From assembly GCA_021604005.1 (NCBI GenBank), contig BQIV01000015.1, positions 1-64,000 on the forward strand: a DNA stretch of 64,000 nucleotides, in the 5' to 3' direction. Source of the stretch: Nitrospirales bacterium (GTDB lineage Bacteria > Nitrospirota > Nitrospiria > Nitrospirales > UBA8639). Positions 8,901-59,714 of the stretch are shown here, one piece after another. A program made the translations under genes and the position numbers. Numbering within the stretch: the first letter of the stretch is position 1; every line of letters starts with the position of its first letter. The notes under the pieces are model-generated. The model worked only from the letters and a program-made list of their open reading frames with translations. It did no database searches and was not told the origin of the DNA.

Positions 8901-9342
8901 CCACCTTGGACAGGTGCTTTATACCGGAAAGGACTTTATCATTATTGATTTTGAAGGTGAGCCCGCTCGCGCCTTGAGCGTTCGACGGCTCAAGGAATCA
9001 CCGCTTCGGGATGTCGCGGGTATGTTGCGTTCATTTCACTACGCAGCCTACTCCAGCCTGGTCGGTCAAGTTGCGGGCGTACGGCCGGAAGATTTTCCCG
9101 CTCTCGAACCGTGGGCAAGATTTTGGCAACGTTGGGTCAGCGCCACATACCTGAACGCCTACCTCGATGTCACAAGCGACGCGCACTTTCTTCCTCAGAA
9201 TACGGATGATCTGTTTGTTCTCTTAGACGCCTATATTATCCAGAAAGCCATCTATGAACTTGGGTATGAACTCAATAACCGTCCGGATTGGGTTGGCATT
9301 CCATTGGACGGCATTCAACAAATACTTGCGGTCGATTCATGA
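5989..9342 (+). CDS. treS: Trehalose synthase / maltokinase fusion (TreS-Mak)
   Basis: Bifunctional enzyme of the GlgE pathway: the amino-terminal GH13 domain interconverts trehalose and maltose, and the carboxy-terminal kinase phosphorylates maltose with ATP to maltose 1-phosphate. In the 1117-residue protein the TreS half (about 1-560) shows the nucleophile D213 in GLRLDAV, acid/base E255 in LLAEANQW and transition-state D321 in RNHDE. The kinase half (about 590-1117) has the phosphotransferase motif HGDYHLGQ (968-975) and the metal motif IDFEGEP about 15 residues later. The start ATG follows GGGGAGGCACG. The next gene encodes GlgE, 103 bases on, which would consume the maltose 1-phosphate. 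Cytoplasmic; a role in osmoprotection or carbon storage is inferred. Confidence 0.95.
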   Translation: MADKGKNVETREHDPQWYKDAIIYELHVRAFHDSNTDGVGDFRGLTEKLDYLQDLGVTTIWLLPFCPSPLRDDGYDIADFTNIHPSYGTRRDFRAFVREAHRRGLRVITELVVNHTSDQHPWFQRARHAAPGSKWRNFYVWSNTVEKYKDTRIIFKDTEHSNWSWDPVANAYYWHRFFAHQPDLNYDNPDVQRAIFDVLDFWLEMGVDGLRLDAVPYLYEREGTNCENLPETHAYLKKLRKHVDKKFADRMLLAEANQWPEDAAAYFGKGDECHMNFHFPLMPRLFMAMQMEDRFPIIDILEQTPDIPDNCQWALFLRNHDELTLEMVTDEERDYMYRMFAHDNKARINLGIRRRLSPLLGNDRKKIELMYSLLFSMPGTPVIYYGEEIGMGDNYYLGDRNGVRTPMQWNADRNAGFSRANPQKLYLPIIIDPEYHYEAINVELQQNNAQSLLWWMKRMLSIRKQFKVFGQGTIQFFHPANRKVLVYLRQFNDELVLIAANLSRYAQCVELDLSKYKGMIPTSIFGQTPFPPIGELPYFLTLSGHTFYWFQLQAPTSDAIRISTEGPREIPALTTTRDWDHLPTSRDKLRLEAILPEYLRRCRWFGGKARIIQHVDIVETVSMPNENPLAILCLIRVEYTEGESDTYCFPLRYISHEEAKHLVDTPALVADLTIRQKGQEERQGMLCDAIYTSAFLSHVLESMTRGRRYNGPLGDFSAGSVRAFRRQLTAQRPHLIPTLLRGEQSNSSIAYGNDFILKIFRRMDVGVNPDWEIGQFLTQKGFSHIAPVAGQLEYQRDNGDTMTLGILQQYIMNEGDAWRYTLDELSRYYETASTHPTAMTSSLIPQAPLSTLFQEPIPPLAQEFIGPYLEEVRLLGLRTGELHLALGSDANDPNFSPEPFTDFYRRSLYQSMVGLTNQNLPLLRQRIKTLSEPIQTTAKAFLSMESMLRKRFQPIRDRKIKAMRIRCHGDYHLGQVLYTGKDFIIIDFEGEPARALSVRRLKESPLRDVAGMLRSFHYAAYSSLVGQVAGVRPEDFPALEPWARFWQRWVSATYLNAYLDVTSDAHFLPQNTDDLFVLLDAYIIQKAIYELGYELNNRPDWVGIPLDGIQQILAVDS

Positions 9343-9445
9343 CGATGGTCATTCAGCGCTCACGACACGTTGAAATGCCATTGCGGTGCAATTATCACCT
9401 GGAGTATCCACATTTGAAACCTTTTCGTATTCCGAAGGAGTATTT

Positions 9446-11398
9446 ATGAACAAACTCCCCAAAACGCTACACCCGATCATCATTGAATACGTCAGACCTG
9501 AACTGGATGGCGGACGATATCCTGTCAAGCGTATCGTTGGCGACACACTGGAAGTGACAGCCGATATTTTTAAAGAAGGGCATGATACCTTGGCCGCTCG
9601 ACTCCGCTACAAAACCCCGGAACACAAGGATTGGACGGAAGTGACGATGCACCATGTCGACAATGATCAATGGGCCGGCTCATTCGTTCTTTCAGAAAAC
9701 ACACGATATACATATTCCGTCGGCGCCTACGTTCAACAGTATGAAACATGGCGGCGGGAACTTCAAAAAAAACACGGAGCCGTCTCAGACCTGTCGAGCG
9801 AACTCTTGGAGGGGAAAGCACACATCACTCACGCCATGACACGCGCCAAAGGTGAGGGGAAAGCGCAACTCAAACAGTGGCTTCAACAGTTTGCGTCCGC
9901 CCCAGACCAGGAACGCCAAATTACGATTGCACTGGATTCGGCATTAGCTGCGCTGGTTGCGGAACATGAAGTCCGGTTTGCCTGGACCACCTATGCACAT
10001 TCCTTAGAAGTCGTGGTGGACCGTCGACGTGCATGCTACGGGGCCTGGTACGAGATTTTCCCAAGATCCGAAGGCACGGAAGACGGCAAAGGCGGAACCT
10101 TTCGGGATTGCGAAGCACGGTTGCCTGTCATTCGGGATATGGGATTCGATGTGCTTTACCTTACGCCCATTCATCCGATAGGAGAAACCAATCGGAAGGG
10201 CCGCAACAATAGCCTCAAGGCCGAATCCGGAGATCCCGGCAGCCCCTGGGCTATTGGAAGCAAGCATGGAGGACATGATGCGGTAGAGCCGGCCTTGGGA
10301 ACTATGGAAGATTTTGCTCACTTTCAAGCCGCGGTGCAAAAACACGATATGGAGATCGCATTAGACTTCGCAATCAATGCAACTCCCGATCATCCCTACG
10401 TGAAAGAACATCCCGAGTGGTTTAAACAACGTCCCGATGGGTCAATCAAATATGCAGAAAATCCTCCCAAAAAATATGAAGATATTTATGCATTGGACTT
10501 TTACTCCGATGCATGGCAAGACATCTGGCAGGAAATGAAACGCATACTGTTATTTTGGATCAATCAGGGCGTCAAAATCTTTCGCGTCGACAATCCCCAT
10601 ACCAAGCCCGTCATCTTTTGGGAATGGCTGATTCGTGACATTCAAACCGCACACCCCGATGTCCTATTCCTGGCAGAAGCTTTCACACGACCGAAAATGA
10701 TGCGCGTCTTAGCCAAGGCCGGCTACACGCAATCGTACACCTATTTCACCTGGCGCAACACCAAAGAAGACATAATCGAATATATGACAGAATTAACGCA
10801 GACCGCGATGTATGACTATTTCCGTCCAAACTTTTTTGCCAATACCCCGGACATTCTTCCGGAAATACTCCAGCAAGGCGGACGTCCCGCATTTAAATTC
10901 CGGTTCGTACTCGCGGCGACGCTGTCTCCGACCTATGGCATCTATAATGGATATGAACTCTGTGAAAATCGAGCTATCCCAGCAACCGAAGAATATCTGG
11001 ACTCCGAAAAATATGAAATCCGGCATTGGGATTGGGATCGTCCAGGAAACATTCGCGACTATATCACTCACATCAACCGCATTAGACGTGAGCACCCGGC
11101 GCTACAGACATTGGGAAACATTCACTTCTATTCTGCGGATAACGAGCAGGTACTGTTCTATGGAAAAATGACTGACGATAAAGCGGATAGACTCCTGATC
11201 GCCGTAAATATGGACCCGTATACCGTCCAAGAAGCCAAACTGACCATTCCACTTGCTGATCTAGGAATTGGTGAACGCGAACCCTATCGCATGCACGAAC
11301 TGATTCAGGATTATCGGCATGAGGTCGTAGGCGACGAATACATCATTCGCTTGGATCCCAATACCGAACCCGCCGCAATCTTTGTTGTTCAACAGTGA
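9446..11398 (+). CDS. glgE: Alpha-1,4-glucan:maltose-1-phosphate maltosyltransferase GlgE
   Basis: GH13 enzyme that transfers maltosyl units from maltose 1-phosphate to the non-reducing end of alpha-1,4-glucan. The 650-residue protein has an amino-terminal beta domain carrying a family-typical insertion, then the catalytic barrel with the nucleophile D382 in FRVDNPHTKP and acid/base E411 in LAEAFTRP, and a closing beta domain. Length and order agree with characterised GlgE enzymes. The start at 9446 is chosen because GAAGGAG lies six bases before it; an in-frame GTG at 9386 has no ribosome site. It follows the TreS-Mak fusion, so the pair supplies trehalose-to-glucan flux. No branching enzyme GlgB or TreY/TreZ is in this window. 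Confidence 0.96.
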   Translation: MNKLPKTLHPIIIEYVRPELDGGRYPVKRIVGDTLEVTADIFKEGHDTLAARLRYKTPEHKDWTEVTMHHVDNDQWAGSFVLSENTRYTYSVGAYVQQYETWRRELQKKHGAVSDLSSELLEGKAHITHAMTRAKGEGKAQLKQWLQQFASAPDQERQITIALDSALAALVAEHEVRFAWTTYAHSLEVVVDRRRACYGAWYEIFPRSEGTEDGKGGTFRDCEARLPVIRDMGFDVLYLTPIHPIGETNRKGRNNSLKAESGDPGSPWAIGSKHGGHDAVEPALGTMEDFAHFQAAVQKHDMEIALDFAINATPDHPYVKEHPEWFKQRPDGSIKYAENPPKKYEDIYALDFYSDAWQDIWQEMKRILLFWINQGVKIFRVDNPHTKPVIFWEWLIRDIQTAHPDVLFLAEAFTRPKMMRVLAKAGYTQSYTYFTWRNTKEDIIEYMTELTQTAMYDYFRPNFFANTPDILPEILQQGGRPAFKFRFVLAATLSPTYGIYNGYELCENRAIPATEEYLDSEKYEIRHWDWDRPGNIRDYITHINRIRREHPALQTLGNIHFYSADNEQVLFYGKMTDDKADRLLIAVNMDPYTVQEAKLTIPLADLGIGEREPYRMHELIQDYRHEVVGDEYIIRLDPNTEPAAIFVVQQ

Positions 11399-11448
11399 AC
11401 ACGGAAGGCGTATCCCTAGCCAACAATAGGCAGGAAGAAATCACCGTA

Positions 11449-12336
11449 CTACTCGACAGGCACGACATCAACCGCGACGGCTACGGTATGCTCTCCCCCG
11501 CCAACCATGAACCCGTTAATCGGACTGACATCGCCATAATCACGTCCCCAGGCAAGCGTAATATGTTCATCTCCGGGAATCATATTATTGGTGGGGTCAA
11601 AATCAATCCAGCCATACCCCGGACACCAGACGGAGATCCAGGCATGCGAGGCATCCGCCCCGGCTAATTTTTCTTTCCCTTCTGGCGGGTGGGTTAACAA
11701 ATACCCGCTAATATACCGGGCCGACAGCCCAAGACTTCTCAGCAAGGCAATTTCTACATGCGCAAAGTCCTGACACACGCCACGTTTCGTTTCCAACACC
11801 TCATCAACCGGAGTCGACACATCGGTCACACCTCCTTCATAACGAAACTCCTGAAAGATTCGAGTCGTTAACTCCATGACGGCCGCAAGCAAGGGACGTC
11901 CGTAAGGAAAACACTGCTGCGCATAGTCATAGGCAGCATCATTGCTAATTACGTACGGAGAGTTATAGAGAAACTGGAGCGCGTCGTGTGTGTCCGGATC
12001 ATGCAAGGACTGCAAGTCATGTACGACTTGCTCCCACGGTGGACTCCGGTCCAAGAGAATGGCCTCAATCGAACGCACCTCGATTCGTGAACTGGCAGAT
12101 ACGACAAGTTGAGCATGCGGTTCTTGAATCGTGAGATACATCATTGGATTTCCGTAATAATCCATACCTTCGGTACGAACAGAGGGTGAAGGCTCTACCA
12201 AAACCGTGGAGTGGAGGGCATGCTGACGTGGATGCACTCGTGGAAGCAAACGTAGAATATGATGAGAAATTGCGACAGGGTTCGTGTACGTAAACGTGGT
12301 CCTGTGACTAACCTGATACATGACCATGGGGCTCAT
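11449..12336 (-). CDS. Transglutaminase-like cysteine peptidase/transferase
   Basis: Member of the bacterial transglutaminase-like family (295 residues) with an amino-terminal beta domain (YQVSHRTTFTY, LRLLPR) and a papain-like core. The catalytic triad is visible: C188 in GVCQDFAH, H231 in DASHAW and an Asp at about 245-247 in WIDFDPT. There is no signal peptide, so it is probably cytoplasmic. It follows the fused ATP-grasp/alpha-E gene on the same strand with a 12-base gap and is surely co-transcribed. This association is widespread in bacteria, where comparative genomics suggests peptide synthesis or modification; the substrate is unknown. Confidence 0.9.
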   Translation of the reverse strand: MSPMVMYQVSHRTTFTYTNPVAISHHILRLLPRVHPRQHALHSTVLVEPSPSVRTEGMDYYGNPMMYLTIQEPHAQLVVSASSRIEVRSIEAILLDRSPPWEQVVHDLQSLHDPDTHDALQFLYNSPYVISNDAAYDYAQQCFPYGRPLLAAVMELTTRIFQEFRYEGGVTDVSTPVDEVLETKRGVCQDFAHVEIALLRSLGLSARYISGYLLTHPPEGKEKLAGADASHAWISVWCPGYGWIDFDPTNNMIPGDEHITLAWGRDYGDVSPINGFMVGGGEHTVAVAVDVVPVE

Positions 12337-30428: not shown

Positions 30429-31310
30429 ATGAACGACTGGGATTTTATGACGACGGTGAAGGACATCTTCCAATACCAACTATTTTTGGTGAACCAAACT
30501 CCAGTGACATTGTCTTCTCTCATGGTGTTTTTTCTGTTTATGGTTGGGGTGTTCATTCTAAACGGCGTCCTGCACCGCTTGTTCGCGAATCGCCTCCTGC
30601 GACACATCAATCTTCCTGCCAGCACGAAGTACAATCTCACGCGTGTGGCTCAATACCTTTTGTGGGTACTGGGGGCGATTATCGCGTTTCAACTGATTGG
30701 TATAGATCTCAGTGGACTGGCGGTCATCTTTGGGTTTTTGTCGGTCGGAATAGGATTTGGCTTGCAGAATCTGACCTCGAACTTTATTTCTGGGATCATT
30801 CTATTGTTTGAACAACATATTAAAGTCGGAGACCGCGTGACCGTCGCGGACACAGAAGGCGACGTGGTTGAAATCAACATTCGTTCGACCACCATTCGTT
30901 CACTCAACAATATCGCGATTGTCGTTCCCAATTCTGAGTTCATTTCAGCGACTGTTATCAACTGGTCACATGGAGATCCAAAGACACGTTTAGAGATTGA
31001 TGTGGGTGTGTCATATGGCTCTGAACTCGACACGGTCGTTTTTTCTTTGTTGGAGGCCGCAAGAGAACACCCTGAAGTCTTAGCCAGTCCTGAACCAAAA
31101 GCTTGGCTATTGGGGTTTGGTGATTCAGCATGGAACATGCGTTTGCTGGCATGGGTTGGCGATCCTCAGGGTCGGCGTCAAGTCCACTCTGATATTAACT
31201 GTGCCATCGTGAAAAAGTTCCGAGAAAATAGCGTAGAAATCCCATTCCCACAACGAGATTTGCATGTGCGCTCTCCGGTTCCATTACCACTGATGACAAC
31301 GACTTCCTAA
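30429..31310 (+). CDS. MscS-family mechanosensitive channel
   Basis: A 293-residue channel with three membrane helices, the pore-lining third helix (FGFLSVGIGFGLQNLTSNFISG, about 97-118), the beta domain (IKVGDRVTV...GDVVEINIRSTTIRS) and an alpha/beta carboxy domain ending in VEIPFPQRDLHV. This is the complete MscS layout, so it should open on membrane tension during osmotic downshift. A GGAGG site lies upstream, but an ATG-TAA pair sits between it and the true ATG. The remnant at 5503-5830 is homologous to its last third. Confidence 0.93.
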   Translation: MNDWDFMTTVKDIFQYQLFLVNQTPVTLSSLMVFFLFMVGVFILNGVLHRLFANRLLRHINLPASTKYNLTRVAQYLLWVLGAIIAFQLIGIDLSGLAVIFGFLSVGIGFGLQNLTSNFISGIILLFEQHIKVGDRVTVADTEGDVVEINIRSTTIRSLNNIAIVVPNSEFISATVINWSHGDPKTRLEIDVGVSYGSELDTVVFSLLEAAREHPEVLASPEPKAWLLGFGDSAWNMRLLAWVGDPQGRRQVHSDINCAIVKKFRENSVEIPFPQRDLHVRSPVPLPLMTTTS

Positions 31311-31462
31311 AAAGAACACGGAGAGGTTCATCGTTGTCATTGGATATGTATCTTTGAAGTGAACCACGGATCCATGGTTGTCTTGTCACTTCGTTTTCAC
31401 TGGCTCTCGGCAATTGTCGTATCATCTTGAATATTCGTTCTAACCATCCTGGAGGTGCTCTT

Positions 31463-32299
31463 GTGGATATTACAATTTGGACCGCGCCAATAGAGGAATC
31501 TCTCAAGGCTAGCTTTACACTCTTTATGACCTTTCTGCCCAAAACACTCGGGGCACTGATGCTCTTGGGGATCGGTGTGATCTTGGGAAAACTCGTGCAA
31601 AGTGGCATTAGCCGTCTGATGGAGTTTGTTGTTGTAGACCGATTACTCAGTGGAACAGGCGTGTTGTCGATACTTCAGAAAACCGGCAGTAAGATGACGC
31701 TCTCTCAAGTTGTTGGGGCTGTGGCTTTTTGGGTTATTTTTCTGCTGTTTCTCATTTCTGCTACCGAAACCTTGGAATTGGCCCTCTTATCTCAAGCCCT
31801 CACCGGCCTCGCGTATTATCTGCCGAAGATTGGATTGGCGACACTTATTCTTGTCTTAGGGTTGCTTGCCACAAACTTTGTTAGAGAGCTGATCTCCTTG
31901 GCTTGTGATTCCGCTGGAATTCGGCAAGGTACTGTTATCGCACAAACGGTGTACGTGGCCTCGACACTCTTAGTCCTCGTGACGGCTATTAATGAGTTGG
32001 GGATTGATACCTCTCTTTTGAATCAAATTATCGTGTTGATCGCGGCGGGGCTCATTGCGGGTGCGGCATTATCGTTCGGATTTGGGTCGCGTTCGGCGGT
32101 GGGGAATCTCATTGCTGCTCATTATATTCAACCCATCATTCGAATCGGAGAGCAAATTCAGGTCGGGCCACATTTTGGGACCGTCACCTCCGTCACACCG
32201 ATGGTTGTCGTTCTAGAAACCGAACGAGGCCGTGTCGTCGTGCCTGCCGCGCAATTTACTGAAGTGGCCAGTGTCATTTCTCCGGCACAGGGGGCGTAA
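31463..32299 (+). CDS. MscS-like channel with conserved TM-helix repeats, second copy
   Basis: A 278-residue inner-membrane protein paralogous to the one at 22192-23049: conserved TM-helix units (LPKTLGALMLLGIGVILGKLV and YLPKIGLATLILVLGLLATNFV), glycine-rich helix GAALSFGFGSRSAVGNLIA and a short beta domain (RIGEQIQVGPHFGTVTSVTPM). The GTG start at 31463 is chosen because GGAGGTG lies seven bases before it; the open frame begins 12 codons earlier at a TTG. It is followed after two bases by an MgtE-related gene, so channel and MgtE genes are probably co-transcribed. Confidence 0.85.
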   Translation: MDITIWTAPIEESLKASFTLFMTFLPKTLGALMLLGIGVILGKLVQSGISRLMEFVVVDRLLSGTGVLSILQKTGSKMTLSQVVGAVAFWVIFLLFLISATETLELALLSQALTGLAYYLPKIGLATLILVLGLLATNFVRELISLACDSAGIRQGTVIAQTVYVASTLLVLVTAINELGIDTSLLNQIIVLIAAGLIAGAALSFGFGSRSAVGNLIAAHYIQPIIRIGEQIQVGPHFGTVTSVTPMVVVLETERGRVVVPAAQFTEVASVISPAQGA

Positions 32300-32301
32300 A
32301 T

Positions 32302-33165
32302 ATGGGACTTCAACAGGATCTCATTCATACGTATATCCAACGACATCCAGTCGAAGCGGCTCGTCACCTCGAGTCTCAGTCTGCTGTCGCAGCCCATGAT
32401 CTGCTGAAGAAGATGGATGTTGAGATCGTGGCATCAGTACTTGAATATTTTTTGCCTGCTCACATGGCCGAAGTGTTGAAGCATTTCTCCCCCGAGATGG
32501 GTGCGAAGATCATCAATCGAGTATCGACCACTGCTGCCCGAGCGGTGTTGCGGCAATATGAGACGTCAACACAATCCACACTCTTGTCGAAACTTGACCC
32601 GGCCATCGCTTCCTATTTCCGTCGAACGTTGTCCCAGCCAGACCATACGGCAGGAAGTCTCGCTGACCCCCGTGTGTTAACACTTCGACCAGACATTACC
32701 GTTGGGCAGGCACTGAACCGCATTGGCCTAGAATCACGTCACGCTATTTATTATCTGTATATCATCGATCACCAGACCACATTACACGGGGTCGTTCTGA
32801 TGAAAGAATTGCTCGCCGCGCATGCAGAAACCTCGCTTCAATCAATCATGAACCAGAACGTCAAGATGATCCCGGCTTCTGCAAGTGCGCAGGATCTTCT
32901 TTCTCATCCGGCATGGCAGATGCACGATAGTCTTCCCGTTGTTGAGCAGGGAAAAGCGTTTATCGGTGTCTTACGCTATCGCGTCCTTAAAAAATTCCTG
33001 GAAGCACGCACCGATATGCGAGAACCAGAATTTCTTTCCGATGCACTTCTTCAACTATGGGAAGCGTATTCACTGTCTGGCATTGGGTTGATGACGACGC
33101 TTGGAGAAGTGCTCAAAGCAACGCGTGAGCAAAAGCTGCCACAACAGCAGGAGGAGACACGATGA
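32302..33165 (+). CDS. MgtE-like cytoplasmic regulator: N domain plus CBS, without membrane part
   Basis: A 287-residue soluble protein resembling only the cytosolic half of the Mg2+ channel MgtE: an amino-terminal helical N domain (residues 1 to about 115, with repeats like LPAHMAEVLKHFSPEMGAKI) followed by CBS-type sequence (about 125-245: YLYIIDHQTTLHGVVLMKELL, DSLPVVEQGKAFIGVLRYR). There are no membrane helices and no pore sequence. The next gene, overlapping by four bases, encodes a full MgtE. It could be a Mg2+- or nucleotide-sensing partner in a mixed channel, or an independent sensor. The role is inferred. Confidence 0.82.
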   Translation: MGLQQDLIHTYIQRHPVEAARHLESQSAVAAHDLLKKMDVEIVASVLEYFLPAHMAEVLKHFSPEMGAKIINRVSTTAARAVLRQYETSTQSTLLSKLDPAIASYFRRTLSQPDHTAGSLADPRVLTLRPDITVGQALNRIGLESRHAIYYLYIIDHQTTLHGVVLMKELLAAHAETSLQSIMNQNVKMIPASASAQDLLSHPAWQMHDSLPVVEQGKAFIGVLRYRVLKKFLEARTDMREPEFLSDALLQLWEAYSLSGIGLMTTLGEVLKATREQKLPQQQEETR

Positions 33166-34466
33166 CGACAATGCCTCAGACTATTGCAATGCACGAAGCA
33201 TTTATTTCGCAATATCCAGAAGAAGTCGCCCATCTCTTCGAAACCTATCCAGTCGATGAAGTTCTTGAGGTACTTCACGGTACGTCAGGACATGACACTG
33301 CCAAGATACTCTCTGCTATGACTCCCTCCGTTGCCGCAGAAATTCTTGGAGACATGCCGGGGGAAATGTTACAGGAGACGCTTCTTCAGGTTGAGCCATC
33401 TGTCGCAGCCACACTCCTGCGAAGGCTCTCTGAAGATCAGCGTCATACCGTGTTAGAAGCATTACCGAAGACTGTCTCCACCGAGATCGACGCGTTTCTG
33501 GAATACCCAGAAGATTCAGTCGGCCTGCTTATGGATCCACGATTCTTTGCGTTACCTCAGGATATACACGTCGAAGAAGCTATCAGTCAGATTCGAACAC
33601 GTGCTCCGCGGGATCTGCATGAAATCTATATCATCGATCGCAGTCAGGTGCTGACTGGAATCCTTCTTCTCCGTGATGTGTTTCTTGCGCCCGGGCAGGA
33701 ACAACTCCAATCGTTAATGAAGCGAGAGTTGCCAACCATCCATCCGCTTGAAAGTCAGGAACAGGTCATAGAAGTGTTTGAGCAATGGAAGGTGCTGACG
33801 ATCCCCGTCACCGATTTAAATGGTCGGTTACTTGGCGTCATTAGAAATCAAGATATCATCGAGGTTGAAAAGGAAGAGGCCACTATCAGCATGCAGACCA
33901 TGGTCGGGGCCAGCAAAGACGAACGTGCACTCTCCCCACCCATGTTCGCTGTTCGCAAGCGCTTACCGTGGCTTCAAATTAATCTTCTCACGGCATTTCT
34001 TGCGGCTTTTGTCGTGGGGTTATTTGAGGACACCATTGCCAGGTTTACTGCCTTGGCTGTGTTGCTCCCAGTCGTAGCTGGGCAATCTGGAAATACCGGG
34101 GCTCAAGCCCTGGCGGTTGTCATGCGCGGATTAGCGCTTCGGGATATTCGTCCAGCTCAATGGGTTCGAGTGGCAACGAAGGAGTCGTATGTCGCATTCG
34201 TGAATGGAGTTGCCGTCGCTGCGACCACGTCGGCCGCGGTCTATGTCTGGAGCCAATCATGGGGACTGACGATGGTCATTGGGATTTCAATGGTGCTTTC
34301 GATGGTCATGGCAGGACTTTCTGGGGCGGTGATTCCCATCATACTGAGAGCGCTCAATCAAGATCCGGCACAATCATCATCCATTATTCTCACGACTGTC
34401 ACTGATGTGGCCGGGTTCCTGAGTTTCTTGGGTCTCGCTACGATGTTTGCAAGTTTCCTTGAATAA
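33162..34466 (+). CDS. mgtE: Magnesium transporter MgtE
   Basis: A 434-residue Mg2+ channel with N domain (about 10-120), paired CBS domains (about 125-250), a connecting helix and five membrane helices (about 270-432). The pore signature AGQSGNTGAQALAVVMRG is intact, and the conserved acidic residue of the last helix is present in TDVAGFLSF. In characterised MgtE, Mg2+ binding between N and CBS domains closes the pore. The ATG overlaps the stop of the soluble paralogue (ATGA) and GGAG precedes it, so the two are translationally coupled. Located in the inner membrane. Confidence 0.94.
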   Translation: MTTMPQTIAMHEAFISQYPEEVAHLFETYPVDEVLEVLHGTSGHDTAKILSAMTPSVAAEILGDMPGEMLQETLLQVEPSVAATLLRRLSEDQRHTVLEALPKTVSTEIDAFLEYPEDSVGLLMDPRFFALPQDIHVEEAISQIRTRAPRDLHEIYIIDRSQVLTGILLLRDVFLAPGQEQLQSLMKRELPTIHPLESQEQVIEVFEQWKVLTIPVTDLNGRLLGVIRNQDIIEVEKEEATISMQTMVGASKDERALSPPMFAVRKRLPWLQINLLTAFLAAFVVGLFEDTIARFTALAVLLPVVAGQSGNTGAQALAVVMRGLALRDIRPAQWVRVATKESYVAFVNGVAVAATTSAAVYVWSQSWGLTMVIGISMVLSMVMAGLSGAVIPIILRALNQDPAQSSSIILTTVTDVAGFLSFLGLATMFASFLE

Positions 34467-34908: not shown

Positions 34909-35394
34909 ATGAATAAAACCACGATCGGTTGGAGGGAATGGGTCGCGCTTCCTGATTTAGGCGTTGAACGGATTAAAGCCAAAATTGATACAGGAGCGCG
35001 AACCTCAGCCCTCCATGCATTTGACATTCAAGTATATGAAGAACGAGGGAAGCATTGGGTTCGTTTTGCGGTTCACCCATACCAGAGGAATGACACTGAT
35101 GTGCAAACGTGTGTATGTCCAATCCGTGAATCTCGGGTGGTCACCAATTCAGGGGGAACCCAGGAGGAACGACTCGTCATTGAAACCCAATTAACAGTGG
35201 GAGTTCAGTCATGGCCGATTGAAGTTACATTGACGAATCGAGATCAAATGGGTTTTCGAATGTTGTTAGGTCGAACTGCTCTCAGAGGCCATTTCCTTAT
35301 CGATCCCGGAAAGTCATTTTGTAGCAAGCCTTCAGCAGTAAAAGCCTCTCGACGACTTCATTCAGCTTCTGTTCATTTTCAAGAGGAGGAATAA
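34909..35394 (+). CDS. RimB-like retropepsin-fold protease (Zn_protease family)
   Basis: A 161-residue cytoplasmic protein of the family annotated as ATP-dependent zinc protease (PF05618), now viewed as retropepsin-like. The catalytic-type motif IDTGARTSALHA carries D27, and LLGRTAL with the following hydrophobic strand closes the fold. In Pseudomonas, rimB of this family is co-expressed with rimK and affects the glutamate tail made by RimK. The adjacent rimK starts four bases after its stop, supporting the same partnership here. Substrate and activity are inferred. Confidence 0.85.
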   Translation: MNKTTIGWREWVALPDLGVERIKAKIDTGARTSALHAFDIQVYEERGKHWVRFAVHPYQRNDTDVQTCVCPIRESRVVTNSGGTQEERLVIETQLTVGVQSWPIEVTLTNRDQMGFRMLLGRTALRGHFLIDPGKSFCSKPSAVKASRRLHSASVHFQEEE

Positions 35395-35397
35395 CCT

Positions 35398-36303
35398 ATG
35401 AAACTTGCCATGATGGCACGTAATCCAAAATTGTATTCTCATCTACGGCTTGTGGAAGCGGCAGAGAAAGCTGGGCATCACATCGATGTCATCAATACTA
35501 CAAAGGTGTATGTGAATATCACCTCCCATAATCCTGAACTTCGTTATAAAGGAGAAAATCTAACAGGCTATGATGCCGTCATTCCAAGGATTGGTGCCTC
35601 TATCACGTTTTACGGGTTAGCCGTGTTACGACAGTTCGAGATGATGGGAGTGTGGCCACTGAACGAGTCCGTCGCCATCGGACGATCTCGAGACAAGCTG
35701 CGTGCCCTACAATTATTGGCACGGAAAGGTATTGGACTGCCAGTTACAGCCTTTGCTCATTCAGACGACTTTGCGGATGATGTCATCGCGATTGCTGGAG
35801 GAGCGCCAGTCGTAATCAAACTGCTAGAAGGGACCCAAGGCATTGGCGTCGTGTTGGGCGAAACACATAACTCAGCAAAGTCGGTCATTGAGGCCTTTCG
35901 AGGTGTCAAAGTTAATATCATGGTTCAAGAGTTCATCAAAGAAGCCGGAGGTTCTGATATTCGCTGTTTGGTCATCGGTGATCGAGTGATTGCTTCCATG
36001 AAACGACAAGGTGCCAAGGGGGACTTCCGATCCAATCTTCATCGTGGTGGCAATGCCGAAGTGATTAAAATCACCCCGGAAGAACGATCAACGGCGACTC
36101 GGGCGGCCAATATCATGGGACTCAATGTCTGTGGTGTGGACTTGCTTCGTTCCAAACATGGTCCAGTCGTTATGGAGATTAATTCTTCTCCGGGTCTTGA
36201 AGGCATTGAAAAAGCGACGGGAATCGATGTGGCGAAAGAGATCATTCAATTCATCGAAAAAAATGCAAAACCCAATAAGACGAGGACGCGAGGTCGTGGC
36301 TAA
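35398..36303 (+). CDS. rimK: RimK, ATP-grasp glutamate ligase
   Basis: A 301-residue ATP-grasp enzyme of the RimK family, which adds glutamate residues to the carboxy end of ribosomal protein S6. Visible motifs are [13 protein letters not shown], the ATP-binding loop [13 protein letters not shown] (about 139-151), [18 protein letters not shown] and the metal-binding [11 protein letters not shown] near 260. Length and order match E. coli RimK. GGAGG precedes the ATG closely. It is flanked by the RimB-like protease (four bases upstream) and an AstE/aspartoacylase-like hydrolase (overlapping), a recurrent gene trio. Confidence 0.94.
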
Positions 36304-37530: not shown

Positions 37531-38487
37531 ATGTCCGAAGAAAAATCCATTATCGTAAAAGCTAAAGAGGGTGTTGTCGAGACAATCAAAGGGACTGGTG
37601 ATGTCACGAATGCCGTCCTTGATCTGCTCAGCGGTTCATTACTCACGGCTCTCAAGGGCACAAAGGCTGTTGGCGCCGAAGCTGGCAACCTAGTGAAAGA
37701 TACGATCATTGGCTCGGTCAAAGGCCTCGCTGAAGTAGGTGGCGAAACGGGTTCGGCCGCAAAGGGTGTGATACTAGGTGTTGTCAAAGGTACGAAGGAA
37801 TTGACCACGGACACACTCGAAACGATTGGGGTCAGCACTTCCACACTGATCAAAACCACGTCAGAGGTTGGCGGTGACCTCGCCAAAACAGCCAAAGGCG
37901 CTGTGGAAGGGGCCATCGTCGCCACAAAGGATTTAAGCATGGAAATCGCAGATGCCGCTGCGCAGTCTGTAAGTGTCGCGATTAAAGGAGTGAGTTCCGT
38001 TGGAGGACAGTTAGCAGATACCGCAAAAGAAGCAGTCATTGGTGCGGCACAGGCCACGCAGGAGGTAGGTGGGAAAGCTATGGAAACCATCAGCCATACT
38101 GCCGGTGCCGTTGTCAAAGCCACGGTAGAGGTCGGTGGGGATCTCGCTTCGACCACCAAAGCCACGATGGTGGGGGCACTTGAGGGGGCAAAAGAAGTTG
38201 GAGAGAAAGCCATGGACACGGTAAGCGGAACGGCCAGTTCCATGATTAAAGCGACGGCGCAAGTCGGTGGAGATCTGGGAATTACGGCCAAACATTCGGT
38301 TGAAGGCGCAATTGAGGGGGCCAAGTCCATCGGGGCAGACACAGCCGAAGCCGCATCTGCCGCTGCGACCAGTGCTTTCAAAGCCGCGGGTGAAATTAGT
38401 TCCAGCGCCGGGGAACAAGTTCGAAACGCCGTGACTGGAACAATAAGTGGTGTAAAAGTCGTGTTAAAAGAGCCGTTTAAGAAATAA
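37531..38487 (+). CDS. LEA-like repetitive amphipathic helix protein
   Basis: A 318-residue protein without Cys, Trp or Tyr, rich in Ala, Gly, Thr, Val and Lys. Residues 69-288 are five consecutive units of exactly 44 residues, each beginning VGG or a close variant (at 69, 113, 157, 201, 245), and each dividing into four 11-residue steps. Eleven-residue periodicity is typical of LEA group 3 proteins, apolipoproteins and synucleins, which form membrane-binding or desiccation-protective helices. A half unit (47-68) precedes. GGAGG lies before the ATG. There is no signal peptide. With trehalose enzymes and mechanosensitive channels nearby, a protective role under water stress is plausible but unproven. 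Confidence 0.85.
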   Translation: MSEEKSIIVKAKEGVVETIKGTGDVTNAVLDLLSGSLLTALKGTKAVGAEAGNLVKDTIIGSVKGLAEVGGETGSAAKGVILGVVKGTKELTTDTLETIGVSTSTLIKTTSEVGGDLAKTAKGAVEGAIVATKDLSMEIADAAAQSVSVAIKGVSSVGGQLADTAKEAVIGAAQATQEVGGKAMETISHTAGAVVKATVEVGGDLASTTKATMVGALEGAKEVGEKAMDTVSGTASSMIKATAQVGGDLGITAKHSVEGAIEGAKSIGADTAEAASAAATSAFKAAGEISSSAGEQVRNAVTGTISGVKVVLKEPFKK

Positions 38488-54855: not shown

Positions 54856-55269
54856 TCGAGTCACACGAGCCTGCTCTTGTTCCCGACACGATGGTCTTAG
54901 CCCTGACGATTCCGTTGATACTGCGAACGGGCTTGCATAAACCCATATAACAACCGGTGGATGACCAGACTCTTCGGTAAACGTTCAGGTAGCCATTGTA
55001 CGGCTCATAATTCAGGAGCGGATGGATACCCATCCCTCACTGACTTCAACGACAGCCACAGCTGAGCGAATATAGTGACTGGATGGGACTGGCTACACAG
55101 ATTGGCAACAGTATCGAAAAGCACTTGATAAACCTGCAAATTTCTGTATAGTCACAGAAGCAATTTTGATGCTAAGGTACCATGGAATGTAGCGATCCGG
55201 TCGACGCGTCACTATGTGCTCTTACCTGAATACGTCTGCCTGACAACAATGTATTCGAAGGAGTCTCCA
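54856..55269. other. Intergenic region before the secreted protease operon
   Basis: About 410 bases with no supported gene. A palindrome lies at 55142-55159. The open frames here have no domain or ribosome site. Confidence 0.45.
55142..55159. promoter_or_regulatory. Palindrome TTCTGT-N6-ACAGAA, candidate operator
   Basis: Perfect six-base arms separated by ATAGTC, about 110 bases before the start of the protease-7TM-ligase operon. Symmetry and size fit a dimeric repressor site; there is no further evidence. Confidence 0.35.
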
Positions 55270-55794
55270 TTGACATTTTCACACATGCTCTTGGCCGTGT
55301 GTTCTCTTGCCCTGTTGACACCTACGTTGAATGCTAGGGCTGAATTAATCCTCGATTATAGTCCAAAACTTATTGTTGGTTGGATTGAAAAAGTTCAAAT
55401 TCTCCCGGAAAATATTCTCCTTCACGCCAAGGTTGATACGGGGGCAGATACATCGTCACTCAATGTGTCAGGACTCTCAGATATCGTGCGTGACTCGGAA
55501 CGATGGGTAAAGTTTACGGTAACCACCAAAGAGGGACAAAGCGTTAATCTTAAAAAGCCCGTACACCGGTATGTAAAGATCAAGAGAAAAGGCACGCACT
55601 CCCAACGGCGACCCGTGGTGAGATTTGATTTGTGCTTAGGAAACATTTTCAAAAAAAATGTGCAAGTCAACCTGGCTGATCGTAAAAATTTTAAATATAA
55701 CATGCTCGTGGGTCGAAACTTCCTCAAACGCACAGCGGTCGTTGATTCTGCCGAGATCTACAAACATGAACCTAACTGCGTAAAAGAGAAGTAA
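55270..55794 (+). CDS. Exported retropepsin-like protease (Zn_protease family)
   Basis: A 174-residue protein. TTG 55270 is chosen as start: AAGGAG lies six bases upstream and the product then begins with a signal peptide (hydrophobic 6-20, likely cut after ARA near 24). The mature part holds the retropepsin-like motif KVDTGADTSSL with D56 and the closing NMLVGRNFLKRTAVVDSA. It is a paralogue of the cytoplasmic RimB-like protein at 34909 but exported. The next two genes encode a 7TM protein and a RimK-like ligase, a gene trio that I recognise from many proteobacteria. Confidence 0.85.
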   Translation: MTFSHMLLAVCSLALLTPTLNARAELILDYSPKLIVGWIEKVQILPENILLHAKVDTGADTSSLNVSGLSDIVRDSERWVKFTVTTKEGQSVNLKKPVHRYVKIKRKGTHSQRRPVVRFDLCLGNIFKKNVQVNLADRKNFKYNMLVGRNFLKRTAVVDSAEIYKHEPNCVKEK

Positions 55795-55800
55795 GTATTC

Positions 55801-57321
55801 TTGAACAAGCGTCATCTGTATTTACTCGTTCTGTCTTTATCTGCCTTTGGTCTTGGCCTGTTTGTCTATAAGGCTGCCGTCCTTCAATTTCCGTTAGTTC
55901 CACAAACACAAGCCGAACTGTGGAACGTCGAAGTTCACCTGACGTTTTTCGCCAAAAATAAGCCGGTAAAAGCTTCGCTCGCCTTACCGAGGAATACTCG
56001 TCGATATGCCATCGTTGATGAAAACTTTATTTCTCAAGGGTATGGGTTAACGACGGTAAAAGATGATGAGAACCGGCGAGCCACCTGGTCCATCCGGAAT
56101 GCCAACGGCAAACAACATTTATACTATCGCGCTACGGTTCGACGAGTTGAAGTTGCGGATCTTCACACAGAACCTCGCATGCCCGACATCGCCATTTCCC
56201 CTCTTCTGGGCGCACAATTAGCTGCTGCCCAAGCGCTGCTGGCTGACATTAAGGAAAAGTCTGCCGATGCCACCACCATGGTTGCCGAACTCTTCTCCCG
56301 GATGAAACATCCAAATGCCGATCCAAATCTTCAATTACTCCTCGCAAAAGATTATTCGCCGGAAAACAAGCTCGAACTGGCCACTGACATCCTGGATCTT
56401 GCCAAAATTCCCAATCGAATCGTTCATGGCGTTCGACTCGCAGAATTTCAACGACAAGCCACCATCGTCCACTGGTTACAGATTTTTGTAAAGGGTGAAT
56501 GGAAGTCACATCATCCGGAAACCGGCAGTCCTGATATTCCAAGTAATTACTTCACCTGGTGGCGCGGACTCCAGCCATTAATGGATATTGACGGCGGCGA
56601 TAAACTCGCCATGACAATGACCGTAGCTCCCAATCAGGAAGAGGCCATACAGGCAGCCATGTATCATACGCAACTGGCAACCCCTGAATTATTGGAATTT
56701 TCTCTCTTTAGCCTACCTCTCGAGGCACAGGCGGTCTATCGGATTTTGCTCATGGTTCCCCTGGGAGCCTTGTTGTTACTCGTGCTCCGAAACGTCATTG
56801 GGATCAAGACGTTTGGGACCTTCATGCCCATCCTCATGGCCCTAGCATTTCGCGAAACGCAATTACTCTGGGGGGTCATCCTGTTCTCATTCGTAGTAGC
56901 GTTAGGATTGGGGGTACGCTTTTATCTCGAACATCTCAAACTCCTCCTTGTTCCCCGGCTGGCGTCCCTTCTGATTATCGTCATTCTCCTGATGGCCGCC
57001 CTTAGCATCCTCAGTCATAAACTTGGCCTTGATCGAGGACTCTCGGTCGCATTATTTCCTATGGTCATTTTAACGATGACGATTGAGCGTATGTGCATCG
57101 TCTGGGAAGAACGGGGAGCGAGTGAATCCATTCAACAAGGCTTAGGAAGTTTAGCGGTCGCCTCACTGACCTATGTGGCCATGACAATCCCATATATGGA
57201 GCACCTGCTCTTTGTCTTTCCAGAATTGTTATTACTCTTCCTGGCAGGCACATTGCTGATGGGACGGTACTCTGGTTTTCGGTTGCTCGAACTTCGTCGT
57301 TTTAAGGCATTAACGCAATAG
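55801..57321 (+). CDS. UUP1-family membrane protein: inactive transglutaminase-like domain plus 7TM
   Basis: A 506-residue protein with one amino-terminal helix (about 6-26), a periplasmic region of about 270 residues that resembles a transglutaminase fold (LELATDILDLAKIPNRIVHGVRL, IVHWLQIFVKGEWKSHHPETG) and about seven membrane helices from residue 310 to 490. The expected catalytic Cys before the central helix is not present, so the fold is probably non-catalytic and may bind a peptide. TTG start with AAGTAAG-like sequence before it, six bases after the protease gene. The function is unknown; export or sensing of a ligase product is a reasonable guess. Confidence 0.85.
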   Translation: MNKRHLYLLVLSLSAFGLGLFVYKAAVLQFPLVPQTQAELWNVEVHLTFFAKNKPVKASLALPRNTRRYAIVDENFISQGYGLTTVKDDENRRATWSIRNANGKQHLYYRATVRRVEVADLHTEPRMPDIAISPLLGAQLAAAQALLADIKEKSADATTMVAELFSRMKHPNADPNLQLLLAKDYSPENKLELATDILDLAKIPNRIVHGVRLAEFQRQATIVHWLQIFVKGEWKSHHPETGSPDIPSNYFTWWRGLQPLMDIDGGDKLAMTMTVAPNQEEAIQAAMYHTQLATPELLEFSLFSLPLEAQAVYRILLMVPLGALLLLVLRNVIGIKTFGTFMPILMALAFRETQLLWGVILFSFVVALGLGVRFYLEHLKLLLVPRLASLLIIVILLMAALSILSHKLGLDRGLSVALFPMVILTMTIERMCIVWEERGASESIQQGLGSLAVASLTYVAMTIPYMEHLLFVFPELLLLFLAGTLLMGRYSGFRLLELRRFKALTQ

Positions 57322-57342
57322 CACGATTGCAGCACGGCATGT

Positions 57343-58317
57343 ATGTTTGCTCTCAGTAAAGCATTGGCAAAACAGGGCGTCCTCGGCTTAAACCACCGCA
57401 ATGCGGGCTATACGCTTTGGCATAACCCACGCCACCTCTTTCCTCTTGTCGATGATAAATTGACAACGAAGCAATTAGCTGAAGCAGCCGGACTCGCGGT
57501 TCCCAAATTGTATGGCGTTATTGAAATTGAACGACAGGTGCGCGGGCTTTCCAACTTGCTCAAACCCTACGATGACTTTGTGATTAAACCAGCGCAAGGC
57601 AGTGGCGGAGATGGTATTGTCGTGATTACGGGCCGACGCAGCCATCGCTATCGCAAAGCCAGTGGTCACTTTGTCACTCAGGAAGGCCTCGACCATCATG
57701 TGTCCAATATTTTAAGTGGACTCTACAGTCTTGGCGGACACCCGGACAAAGCCTTGATTGAATATCGTGTACAGTTTGATCCCGTGTTTGAAGCTATTAG
57801 CTTCCAAGGCATTCCTGACATTCGCATTATCATCTTTCTTGGGGTTCCCGTCATGGCCATGGTTCGTCTTCCGACTCGCATGTCGGATGGGAAGGCGAAT
57901 CTCCATCAGGGAGCTATTGGAGCAGGCATCGATCTGGCCACAGGACGGACCTTAAGCGGGGTTTGGAAAAATGAGATTGTCACCGAACATCCAGACACCG
58001 AACAATCAATCACTGGCGTCCAAATTCCACACTGGGAAACCTTACTGCATCAATCGGCCCAATGTTATGAACTGACAGGACTCGGCTATCAAGGGGTCGA
58101 CCTCGTCTTGGATAAAACCCAAGGACCACTAATCTTAGAACTGAATGCGCGGCCTGGGCTCAACATTCAAATTGCCAATCAGGCAGGACTTTTGCCACGA
58201 TTGCAAATGGTCGAAAAAGAATCAAAAAATCTCATCAAGCTTGAAGATCGATTAGCCTTTGCCACACGGCACTTTGCCGCATCCTCAAATGACCCTTCAG
58301 AACCACGAGGACAATAG
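57343..58317 (+). CDS. RimK-like alpha-L-glutamate ligase (ATP-grasp)
   Basis: A 324-residue ATP-grasp protein of the RimK-related ligase group that accompanies UUP1-type proteins. Motifs: LGLNHRNAGYTLWHNPR at the start, KLTTKQLAEAAGLAVPKLYG, the nucleotide loop VIKPAQGSGGDGIVVI (about 84-99), DIRIIIFLGVPVMAMVRLPT and the metal site LILELNARPGLNIQIAN near 265. It starts 21 bases after the 7TM gene. It probably adds Glu or similar residues to a peptide or small molecule; the acceptor is unknown. It is only distantly related to the RimK at 35398. Confidence 0.9.
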   Translation: MFALSKALAKQGVLGLNHRNAGYTLWHNPRHLFPLVDDKLTTKQLAEAAGLAVPKLYGVIEIERQVRGLSNLLKPYDDFVIKPAQGSGGDGIVVITGRRSHRYRKASGHFVTQEGLDHHVSNILSGLYSLGGHPDKALIEYRVQFDPVFEAISFQGIPDIRIIIFLGVPVMAMVRLPTRMSDGKANLHQGAIGAGIDLATGRTLSGVWKNEIVTEHPDTEQSITGVQIPHWETLLHQSAQCYELTGLGYQGVDLVLDKTQGPLILELNARPGLNIQIANQAGLLPRLQMVEKESKNLIKLEDRLAFATRHFAASSNDPSEPRGQ

Positions 58318-58440: not shown

Positions 58441-59067
58441 CTAGACAATCGATTCAAGCAGCTCATTATTCGGCGAGAAGATCATGAGCATGAGACATCC
58501 ATCTTCAGTTGACGTTTCATGATGCACGGTTCCGGATTCCGCGCGGTGGTAATCTCCAGGATAGAGAATATGTCCGCCGCACGACAGCGTACCCTCGAGA
58601 ATATAAAACTCTTCGGGGGATGTATGCCGATGAGCTCGATAGCAACTATGGGGTGCCATACGTGCAAGCACGGTCATCCGCCCGATGGCTTTATCAAACG
58701 ATAGCCGCTTGACACGAATACCAGGCTCAACTTCTCGCCAACAATCATCTGTCGATCGAACGATTGTAAACCCGCTGGACTGCTCGGACGGCGCCTCTGG
58801 GTCCTGTACGACACCTTGTCCTTTTTCTTGGGGTTCAGCGGCAACGCGCTTGAGTAATGTTGTACGGAGCGAAGCAGGGGGAGTTTTGGGTGCGGCGGCG
58901 GCACCAAGTAGCCCGGCAACGTTCTGAAAGTCTTTCACGGCTTGGCACGTCGCGCAGCCTTCAGCGACGGTTTTTTCAAAGGCCTTCAACTCCGCCCCCT
59001 CAAGCGCACCCAATACATAGAGCGCGGCCTGTTCGAGCATGTCATCGCTAGGTTCTTGCGGGATCAC
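58441..59067 (-). CDS. ChrR/RskA-like anti-sigma factor with cupin domain
   Basis: A 208-residue cytoplasmic protein. The first 75 residues form an anti-sigma-type helical domain (AALYVLGALEGAELKAFEK) with a CATC pair near 38-41 that may bind zinc, although the usual upstream His is not obvious. From about 105 to 200 it has a cupin with the metal motif HRHTSPEEFYILEGTL and GGHILYPGDYHRAESGTVHHE. In ChrR the cupin senses singlet oxygen or related damage and frees the sigma factor. Its ATG overlaps the sigma stop by four bases (ATGA), which couples their translation. Confidence 0.88.
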   Translation of the reverse strand: MIPQEPSDDMLEQAALYVLGALEGAELKAFEKTVAEGCATCQAVKDFQNVAGLLGAAAAPKTPPASLRTTLLKRVAAEPQEKGQGVVQDPEAPSEQSSGFTIVRSTDDCWREVEPGIRVKRLSFDKAIGRMTVLARMAPHSCYRAHRHTSPEEFYILEGTLSCGGHILYPGDYHRAESGTVHHETSTEDGCLMLMIFSPNNELLESIV

Positions 59068-59714
59068 GAGATAAGACCTTCCTCCAATGGACCAAGAATC
59101 ATTCGTAACTTCATCATACCTAATCGTACTCGCGTTTTCACGGTTCCAAGCGGCTCGCCGATATGCTGAGCAATCTCACGTTGCGTAAGCCCTCCAAAAT
59201 ACGCCAACTCAATCACACTCCGCTGATCACTTGTCAAAGACGCTAACGCCTGCTGAAGCACACGACGCTGTTCACGATAGGCGCTCGATTCTTCAGGATT
59301 CGCCTTTGTCGCCGGAGCATCTTCTATCGTATCTAACGATTGGCAACGGTCTCGCTCTTTCTGTCCTGAGCGAAGTCGATCGATCGCGCGACTTCTCACT
59401 AACACCGTTAACCACACAATCGGCTTCCCTCGCTTCTGATCAAATTGGCCAGCCTGACGCCAGACTTGCATATACACGTCCATCGTCACTTCTTCGGCAA
59501 GCATGGGATCATTCAAGACACGGCAGGCCAACCCATACACATAAGGTGACGTTTGGTCATACAAATCTCCAAGCGCGTGCTCATTTCCCCGAGCCACCAT
59601 TGCAATCAAACGCACCAACTCCTGATCGTGCGCACTCAACTCCGGCTTCACCTGTACATCGACATCAAGCACTCGCGTATATCCTTTACTCCTACTACGA
59701 GAAAGGTGCGTCAC
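59064..59714 (-). CDS. ECF-family sigma factor (SigK-like) paired with the cupin anti-sigma
   Basis: A 216-residue ECF sigma factor: region 2 at about 45-115 (ALGDLYDQTSPYVYGLACRVL, WRQAGQFDQKRGKPIVWLT) and region 4 at about 155-205 (RSVIELAYFGGLTQREIAQHIG). The PIVWL pattern and partner type fit the SigK/RskA-ChrR group. Cytoplasmic and held inactive by the overlapping anti-sigma gene product. Divergent from it is a DUF4331-TPR-HupE operon, probably under its control since this pairing recurs in bacteria (inference). The amino-terminal 30 residues are variable and the exact start is uncertain. Confidence 0.92.
   Translation of the reverse strand: MTHLSRSRSKGYTRVLDVDVQVKPELSAHDQELVRLIAMVARGNEHALGDLYDQTSPYVYGLACRVLNDPMLAEEVTMDVYMQVWRQAGQFDQKRGKPIVWLTVLVRSRAIDRLRSGQKERDRCQSLDTIEDAPATKANPEESSAYREQRRVLQQALASLTSDQRSVIELAYFGGLTQREIAQHIGEPLGTVKTRVRLGMMKLRMILGPLEEGLIS

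Follow-up and report, generated by a model that had tools for sequence, protein, structure and literature searches.

An rloABC operon in a Nitrospirales bacterium and a sister operon with an intact transglutaminase triad

Three plus-strand open reading frames at positions 55270-58317 of the window, a 64,000-nucleotide stretch of genomic DNA from a Nitrospirales bacterium, encode a retropepsin, a membrane protein and a ligase and constitute an rloABC operon, of a kind already described in Pseudomonas aeruginosa (Lormand et al., mBio, 2025; PMC12239564) and found here outside the Proteobacteria. More interesting than this operon itself is what is new here, namely, a sister operon in which the transglutaminase-like domain of RloB retains its catalytic triad, along with a pattern of mutual exclusion between the intact triad and a linked retropepsin that holds across all 105 RloB proteins classified over five phyla.

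The operon and its three proteins

The first gene, rloA (55270-55794), encodes an aspartic protease of the retropepsin type whose N-terminus resembles an export signal (PF05618, 2e-33); the second, rloB (55801-57321), an inner-membrane protein with a first TM helix, a periplasmic inactive transglutaminase-like domain and a 7TM block (PF14402, 8.9e-103; PF14400, 3.7e-48); and the third, rloC (57343-58317), a RimK-related, alpha-L-glutamate ligase-like ATP-grasp ligase (TIGR02291, 481.5 bits, above the cut-off of 314.2; PF14397, 2.4e-96). The A-B-C order on one strand and the tight spacing, with 6 bases between rloA and rloB and 21 between rloB and rloC, are those of rloABC. Both gaps had been noted in the original prediction, and the open reading frames and family searches bear them out; its reading of the domains as a ligase, a membrane protein with an outer fold and a retropepsin-like protease also proved right by PF05618, PF14400/PF14402 and TIGR02291, with export judged from the sequence. 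Both rloA and rloB start with TTG, and rloC with ATG. The rloA start is preceded, at seven bases, by AAGGAG, and the RloA of the nearest relative, from the same genus, likewise begins with MTF, although ATG at 55249 and GTG at 55216 are possible alternative in-frame starts upstream. The matches of RloA to the NCBIfam families RloA3, RloA1 and RloA2 (6.7e-32 to 2e-24) and that of RloB to NF052267 (8.5e-145) fall well under the curated cut-offs (110.4 of 210 bits and 483.3 of 900 bits, respectively), which are a naming rule rather than a defining feature of rloABC. Together with the host lineage, these scores set the operon apart from that of P. aeruginosa, which it otherwise resembles in gene order, in the DTGA motif and cysteine pair of a putatively exported retropepsin, in the inactive transglutaminase joined to a 7TM block, and in the RimK-related ATP-grasp ligase. 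The 4.7 Mb genome carries one PF14402 gene, one strong TIGR02291 gene and three PF05618 genes, the third of which (L035:8558-9139, contig C74), located away from both rim and rlo, is RloA-like (about 115 bits in NCBIfam) and is a candidate for a redundant retropepsin like RloA2 or RloA3.

RloA probably starts with a signal peptide of about 24 residues (MTFSHMLLAVCSLALLTPTLNARA; 55270-55341), as suggested by inspection of the sequence and the alignment of relatives: the N-terminus is hydrophobic, ends in ARA, has few positive charges and is kept in RloA relatives but absent from the two RimB rows. The active site, A-K54-V-D56-T-G (55429-55443), combines the catalytic Asp motif DTGA, of which D56, T57, G58 and A59 are invariant in the RloA-family alignment, with the basic K54. 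Residues were matched to those of P. aeruginosa RloA through alignment with the solved relatives identified by sequence, 9g58 (7e-18), 9g59 (4e-16) and 2pma. The four basic residues that touch the modelled chain in the P. aeruginosa protein, K46, R92, R114 and R137, are all kept, as K54, R100, R114 and R138; the arginine pair R114 and R138 (55609-55683), invariant in the alignment, corresponds to the R114 and R137 required there for poly-Glu cleavage (PMC12239564). C122 and C170 occupy columns that are common to the RloA rows and missing from the two RimB rows, so that the cysteine pair of the periplasmic orthologues is kept as well. Compared with 9g58, the flap is about 8 residues shorter.

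The RloB model (46 sequences; mean pLDDT 83.9, pTM 0.63) consists, in order, of a TM helix (residues 3-27), which precedes the outer domain and is additional to the 7TM block, a beta-sandwich, a transglutaminase-like domain reaching to about residue 281, and the 7TM block. The outer part (55909-56643; model residues 37-281) matches 3isr, a putative cysteine protease (Z 15.9 over 224 residues), and TgpA (6g49, 6g4h; Z 7.6-7.8), a periplasmic transglutaminase-like protein of P. aeruginosa. RloB shares with TgpA the membrane-anchored periplasmic transglutaminase-like domain, but differs from it by a 7TM block at the C-terminus and, as far as the window protein is concerned, by the loss of the catalytic triad. 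Indeed, PF14400 and PF14402 were matched, PF01841 was not, and the triad columns hold P, V and H, so that the protein should be catalytically dead. The 7TM block (56719-57264; PF14402; model helices 307-488) was considered as a known transporter, a reading that we rejected given that Foldseek returned no confident match and that matches to RnfA/NqrD-type subunits lay within the background of helical proteins. In VIA-align comparisons, these subunits ranked top among membrane folds (Z 7.0-8.5 over about 120 residues).

RloC retains K82, D253, E266 and N268, which are common to RimK; the last three, in the metal site of the ATP-grasp fold (58099-58146), are invariant in an alignment that includes the RimK of the window. 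Thus, the catalytic residues are present in both the protease and the ligase, as the original prediction requires. The glutamate specificity of RloC is suggested by the family name only, and its best Pfam match, PF14397, denotes a sugar-transfer associated ATP-grasp domain. Accordingly, one may imagine that RloC ligates a wall- or sugar-linked precursor instead of glutamate chains and that the substrate of RloA is a different one, and the phenotypes that P. aeruginosa mutants show in cell shape and with ampicillin (PMC12239564) would suit such a role. We consider this very unlikely, as the more specific TIGR02291 is named for alpha-L-glutamate ligase-like proteins and the protease of the operon prefers poly-Glu.

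The operon has a cytoplasmic counterpart in the same window, the rimB-rimK pair (34909-36303, plus strand; PF05618 for the protease), which the original prediction had placed at 34.9 kb and which is real: the best NCBIfam matches are RimB (2e-37, 128 bits, under the cut-off of 200) and RimK (430 bits, over the cut-off of 331). The operon proteins themselves miss the equivalog scores of this pair (RloA, 62.3 of 200 bits for RimB; RloC, 16.3 of 331 bits for PRK10446, RimK), and in our alignments, RimK of the window is 23% identical to RloC, and RimB 27% identical to RloA. The two systems are alike in setting a retropepsin of the same Pfam family beside a RimK-type ATP-grasp ligase and in the poly-Glu chemistry known from Pseudomonas (PMC11957791); unlike rloABC, RimB-RimK is cytoplasmic and comes without RloB. 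Genes for MscS-type mechanosensitive channels and genes of the MgtE type lie upstream of rimBK (30429-34466), MscS-type genes flank rloABC in a member of the same family (L026:1854-4523 and 8809-11807), and in the same-genus relative L025, rimBK is located about 4 kb upstream of rloABC. These neighborhoods agree with a possible osmotic role. Two other kinds of neighbors were observed, namely, an Ala/Gly/Thr/Lys-rich repetitive protein without a Pfam match, encoded near rim or rlo (window 37531-38487, L025:10109-11104, L026:4566-5519), and, downstream of rloC (58441-59714) and also near it in L025 (1575-2809), an ECF-type sigma factor and a cupin anti-sigma-like protein, recognized by eye, which are possible regulators.

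A sister operon with an intact triad

PF14402 was found in 11 of the 198 genomes of the Nitrospirota draw, and in all 11, RloC adjoins RloB, whereas RloA is encoded upstream in six of these loci and not in the other five. Downstream of B and C, four of the five RloA-less loci encode a TPR protein with a TM anchor and then a secreted protein about 400 aa long, the contig of the fifth ending too early. The RloB proteins of these loci match the PF01841 core (1e-16 to 2e-19), and C210, H245 and D260 (L033 numbering) are invariant among them. We refer to loci of this kind as Type II and to those with a linked retropepsin as Type I. The complete Type II operon comprises four genes, for an intact transglutaminase fused to 7TM, an RloC-like ATP-grasp protein, a TM-anchored TPR protein and a predicted 16-strand barrel, without a linked retropepsin (L027, L030, L031, L033 and L037-L081; L033:4398-10042 is one example). 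Among named genomes, a scan yielded 45 Type II loci, from Gammaproteobacteria, Nitrosomonadales, Mariprofundaceae, Deltaproteobacteria, Nitrospirota, Helicobacteraceae, Spirochaetes, Flavobacteriales and others, with the B-C-TPR-barrel order in most of those of sufficient length; no PF05618 match at all was obtained in 30 of the 45 genomes, many of which are incomplete metagenome assemblies. In L203, L205 and L078, a Type II-like RloB has Cys-His-Cys in place of Cys-His-Asp. No description of the Type II operon was found in the literature searched, which excluded the amidoligase survey of Iyer et al. (2009), and we claim no priority.

The window operon and Type II thus share homologous RloB 7TM cores, RloC and the B-C order but differ in that Type II has PF01841 with Cys-His-Asp, TPR and barrel genes downstream and no linked retropepsin, whereas no TPR or barrel match was obtained between 45001 and 64000 of the window (19 kb), where RloB has P/V/H and a retropepsin is linked. 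The model of the Type II secreted protein, built from 28 sequences (mean pLDDT 85.8, pTM 0.80), has 16 long strands that form a barrel, and the protein is very likely an outer-membrane barrel. Its structural matches are outer-membrane barrels of diverse kinds, including porins, CdiB and BamA, with PgaA, PelB and AlgE among them. A TPR protein beside an outer-membrane barrel is also the arrangement of PgaA/PelB/AlgE-type exporters, and from this neighbor, we infer that the barrel may export a polymer. The likeness to PgaA, PelB and AlgE is one of fold as distinct from sequence homology, and because these proteins appear in the ranking amid numerous porins and further barrels, the common fold does not indicate a common cargo.

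Linked retropepsin and intact triad exclude each other

The 105 RloB proteins were classified from the Nitrospirota set and from draws in which PF14402 occurred in 65 of 398 genomes of Pseudomonadota, 7 of 296 of Bacteroidota, 20 of 247 of Desulfobacterota and 6 of 149 of Spirochaetota. A retropepsin is linked to 78 of them, the window included, and the triad is broken in every one of the 78 (Type I); the Cys-His-Asp triad is intact in 17 (Type II), none of which has a linked retropepsin and 13 of which have a TPR gene. The remaining 10 combine a broken triad with no linked retropepsin: three are Spirochaetota loci with a TPR gene, in which the triad is C-H-C or cut by the contig end, and seven lack the linked retropepsin, the intact triad and the TPR gene alike. 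Not a single locus (0 of 105) has both a linked retropepsin and an intact triad. Loci from the 45-locus scan were kept out of these statistics unless they also appeared in the unbiased draws, because one of the search patterns includes the catalytic Cys. Where the contig extends far enough, RloB is almost always followed by an adjacent RloC, a recurrence across five phyla which indicates that the B-C pairing in the window is not due to chance.

A tree of 119 rows, built from the 7TM part by a quick method, separates the retropepsin-linked loci on one side from the intact-triad loci on the other. Each of the two traits needs no more than three changes on this tree, and there are too few independent pairs for a test. 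Hence, the exclusion is clean but amounts to roughly one evolutionary event, since the tree shows essentially one deep split, and we discarded the notion that it was replicated independently. Two Spirochaetota loci, L201 and L202, have a retropepsin together with a recognizable transglutaminase core in which Cys is replaced by Ser, and, judging from their sequences, look like intermediates between the types. Given the split between Type I and Type II, with no locus showing both, RloBC looks like a conserved core with alternative, swappable cutters. Variants of the pair were encountered as well: in L171 (4830-7597) and L172 (4851-7846), short RloB-like 7TM proteins of 373-385 aa without a recognizable transglutaminase core adjoin an RloC homologue and are preceded by a secreted protein of about 315 aa, and in L197 (3036-5306), RloB and RloC share one 756-aa frame, an apparent fusion, followed by a secreted protein whose sequence starts like that of a barrel.

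A proposed scheme: a product made, presented and cut

The window operon is known from its sequence, and the poly-Glu cleavage and the hypo-osmotic phenotype are P. aeruginosa data. That organism requires three secreted retropepsins, which act redundantly, when osmolarity is low; RloA cleaves glutamate runs of 8 or more, and upon deletion of rloB or rloC, the rloA1-3 mutant fully loses its hypo-osmotic growth defect and partly loses its other defects (PMC12239564). Together, the suppression and the cleavage fit the notion that something made or placed by B and C has to be cut by A. Accordingly, that a product is made, moved and cut, as originally predicted, is the best-supported logic, to which the published function is similar; its middle part, the moving, is a step that we infer rather than prove, and the product, which had been called unknown, can be narrowed to something glutamate-rich. 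We envisage that RloC, in the cytoplasm, would spend ATP on assembling a glutamate-rich chain, either free or joined to something else; that RloB, its constant membrane partner, would pass or present the product to the periplasm, perhaps binding it, without catalysis, by the transglutaminase-type domain that has lost its triad; and that RloA would cut it there, such that it does no harm to the wall and envelope at low osmolarity. In the sister operon, the job of RloA would apparently be done by the intact Cys-His-Asp centre of RloB itself, and the product may be handed on via the periplasmic TPR protein and the outer-membrane barrel; the presence of a live transglutaminase centre beside outer-membrane export-type genes hints that the product of RloC crosses the membrane. 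The gene order and domains common to P. aeruginosa rloABC, the intact catalytic residues of RloA and RloC, the RloB-RloC linkage with the one fusion in L197, the split of 78 versus 17, the predicted barrel and the MscS-type neighbors are the evidence for this scheme, sister operon included; weighing against it are a glutamate specificity taken from a family name, a best Pfam match associated with sugar transfer, the single deep split and the seven loci that do not fit. We put its chances at about even, with transport by RloB as its conjectural part.

The same cleavage data can be accommodated if RloC and RloB add glutamates to at least one envelope protein, or to RloB, and RloA removes them again, in the way that RimK and RimB treat ribosomal protein S6, with no free polymer crossing the membrane. 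In vitro, poly-Glu tails are cut by RloA as well as by RimB, the target of RimK is a protein (PMC12239564, PMC11957791) and RloC is RimK-related; a tag made in the cytoplasm would, however, still have to reach the periplasm, and no linked acceptor protein was found in flanks of about 1.5-2 kb, which leads us to regard such a tagging cycle as rather unlikely. The linked small acceptor peptide for which the original prediction proposed a search did not turn up among the small ORFs (20-110 aa) that surround rloABC of seven genomes, the matches in the window being shadow frames on or overlapping rloABC. Two candidate substrates were set aside. Ribosomal S6 of this genome ends in TPDDRVQ, with no terminal glutamates. 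The single run of at least 7 GAR codons in the genome, a GAG repeat on contig C36, lies in a 173-aa poly-Glu frame, opposite which runs a poly-Pro frame of at least 685 aa; as the latter looks like the real gene, the repeat is no credible RloA target.

We judge it improbable that RloB is instead a receptor, the outer domain of which detects a ligand from the wall or arising under stress, so as to control RloC, with RloA shedding or tuning the receptor and nothing crossing the membrane. A dead outer enzyme domain joined to 7TM would be a plausible receptor layout, but the catalytic triad, TPR and barrel genes of the sister type suit processing or export better than sensing, and poly-Glu is the preferred substrate of RloA. 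Taking the made-presented-cut scheme further, RloB-RloC might be the inner-membrane core of an unrecognized machine that makes an acidic polypeptide and moves it through the inner membrane, with an exporting form in Type II, where an active transglutaminase centre, a TPR scaffold and an outer-membrane barrel take part, and another form in Type I, where a periplasmic retropepsin would have replaced a transglutaminase centre that had lost its activity; this extension is possible but doubtful.

In P. aeruginosa, rloABC affects low-osmolarity survival, biofilm formation and antibiotic tolerance, and the operon is also present in Nitrospirota, Desulfobacterota and Spirochaetota. The description of RloB as an inactive transglutaminase fused to 7TM covers only part of the family. 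The existence of two operon types leads to the testable proposal that RloBC is a constant core with a swappable cutter, and Type II operons are the place where a released product should be easiest to find.
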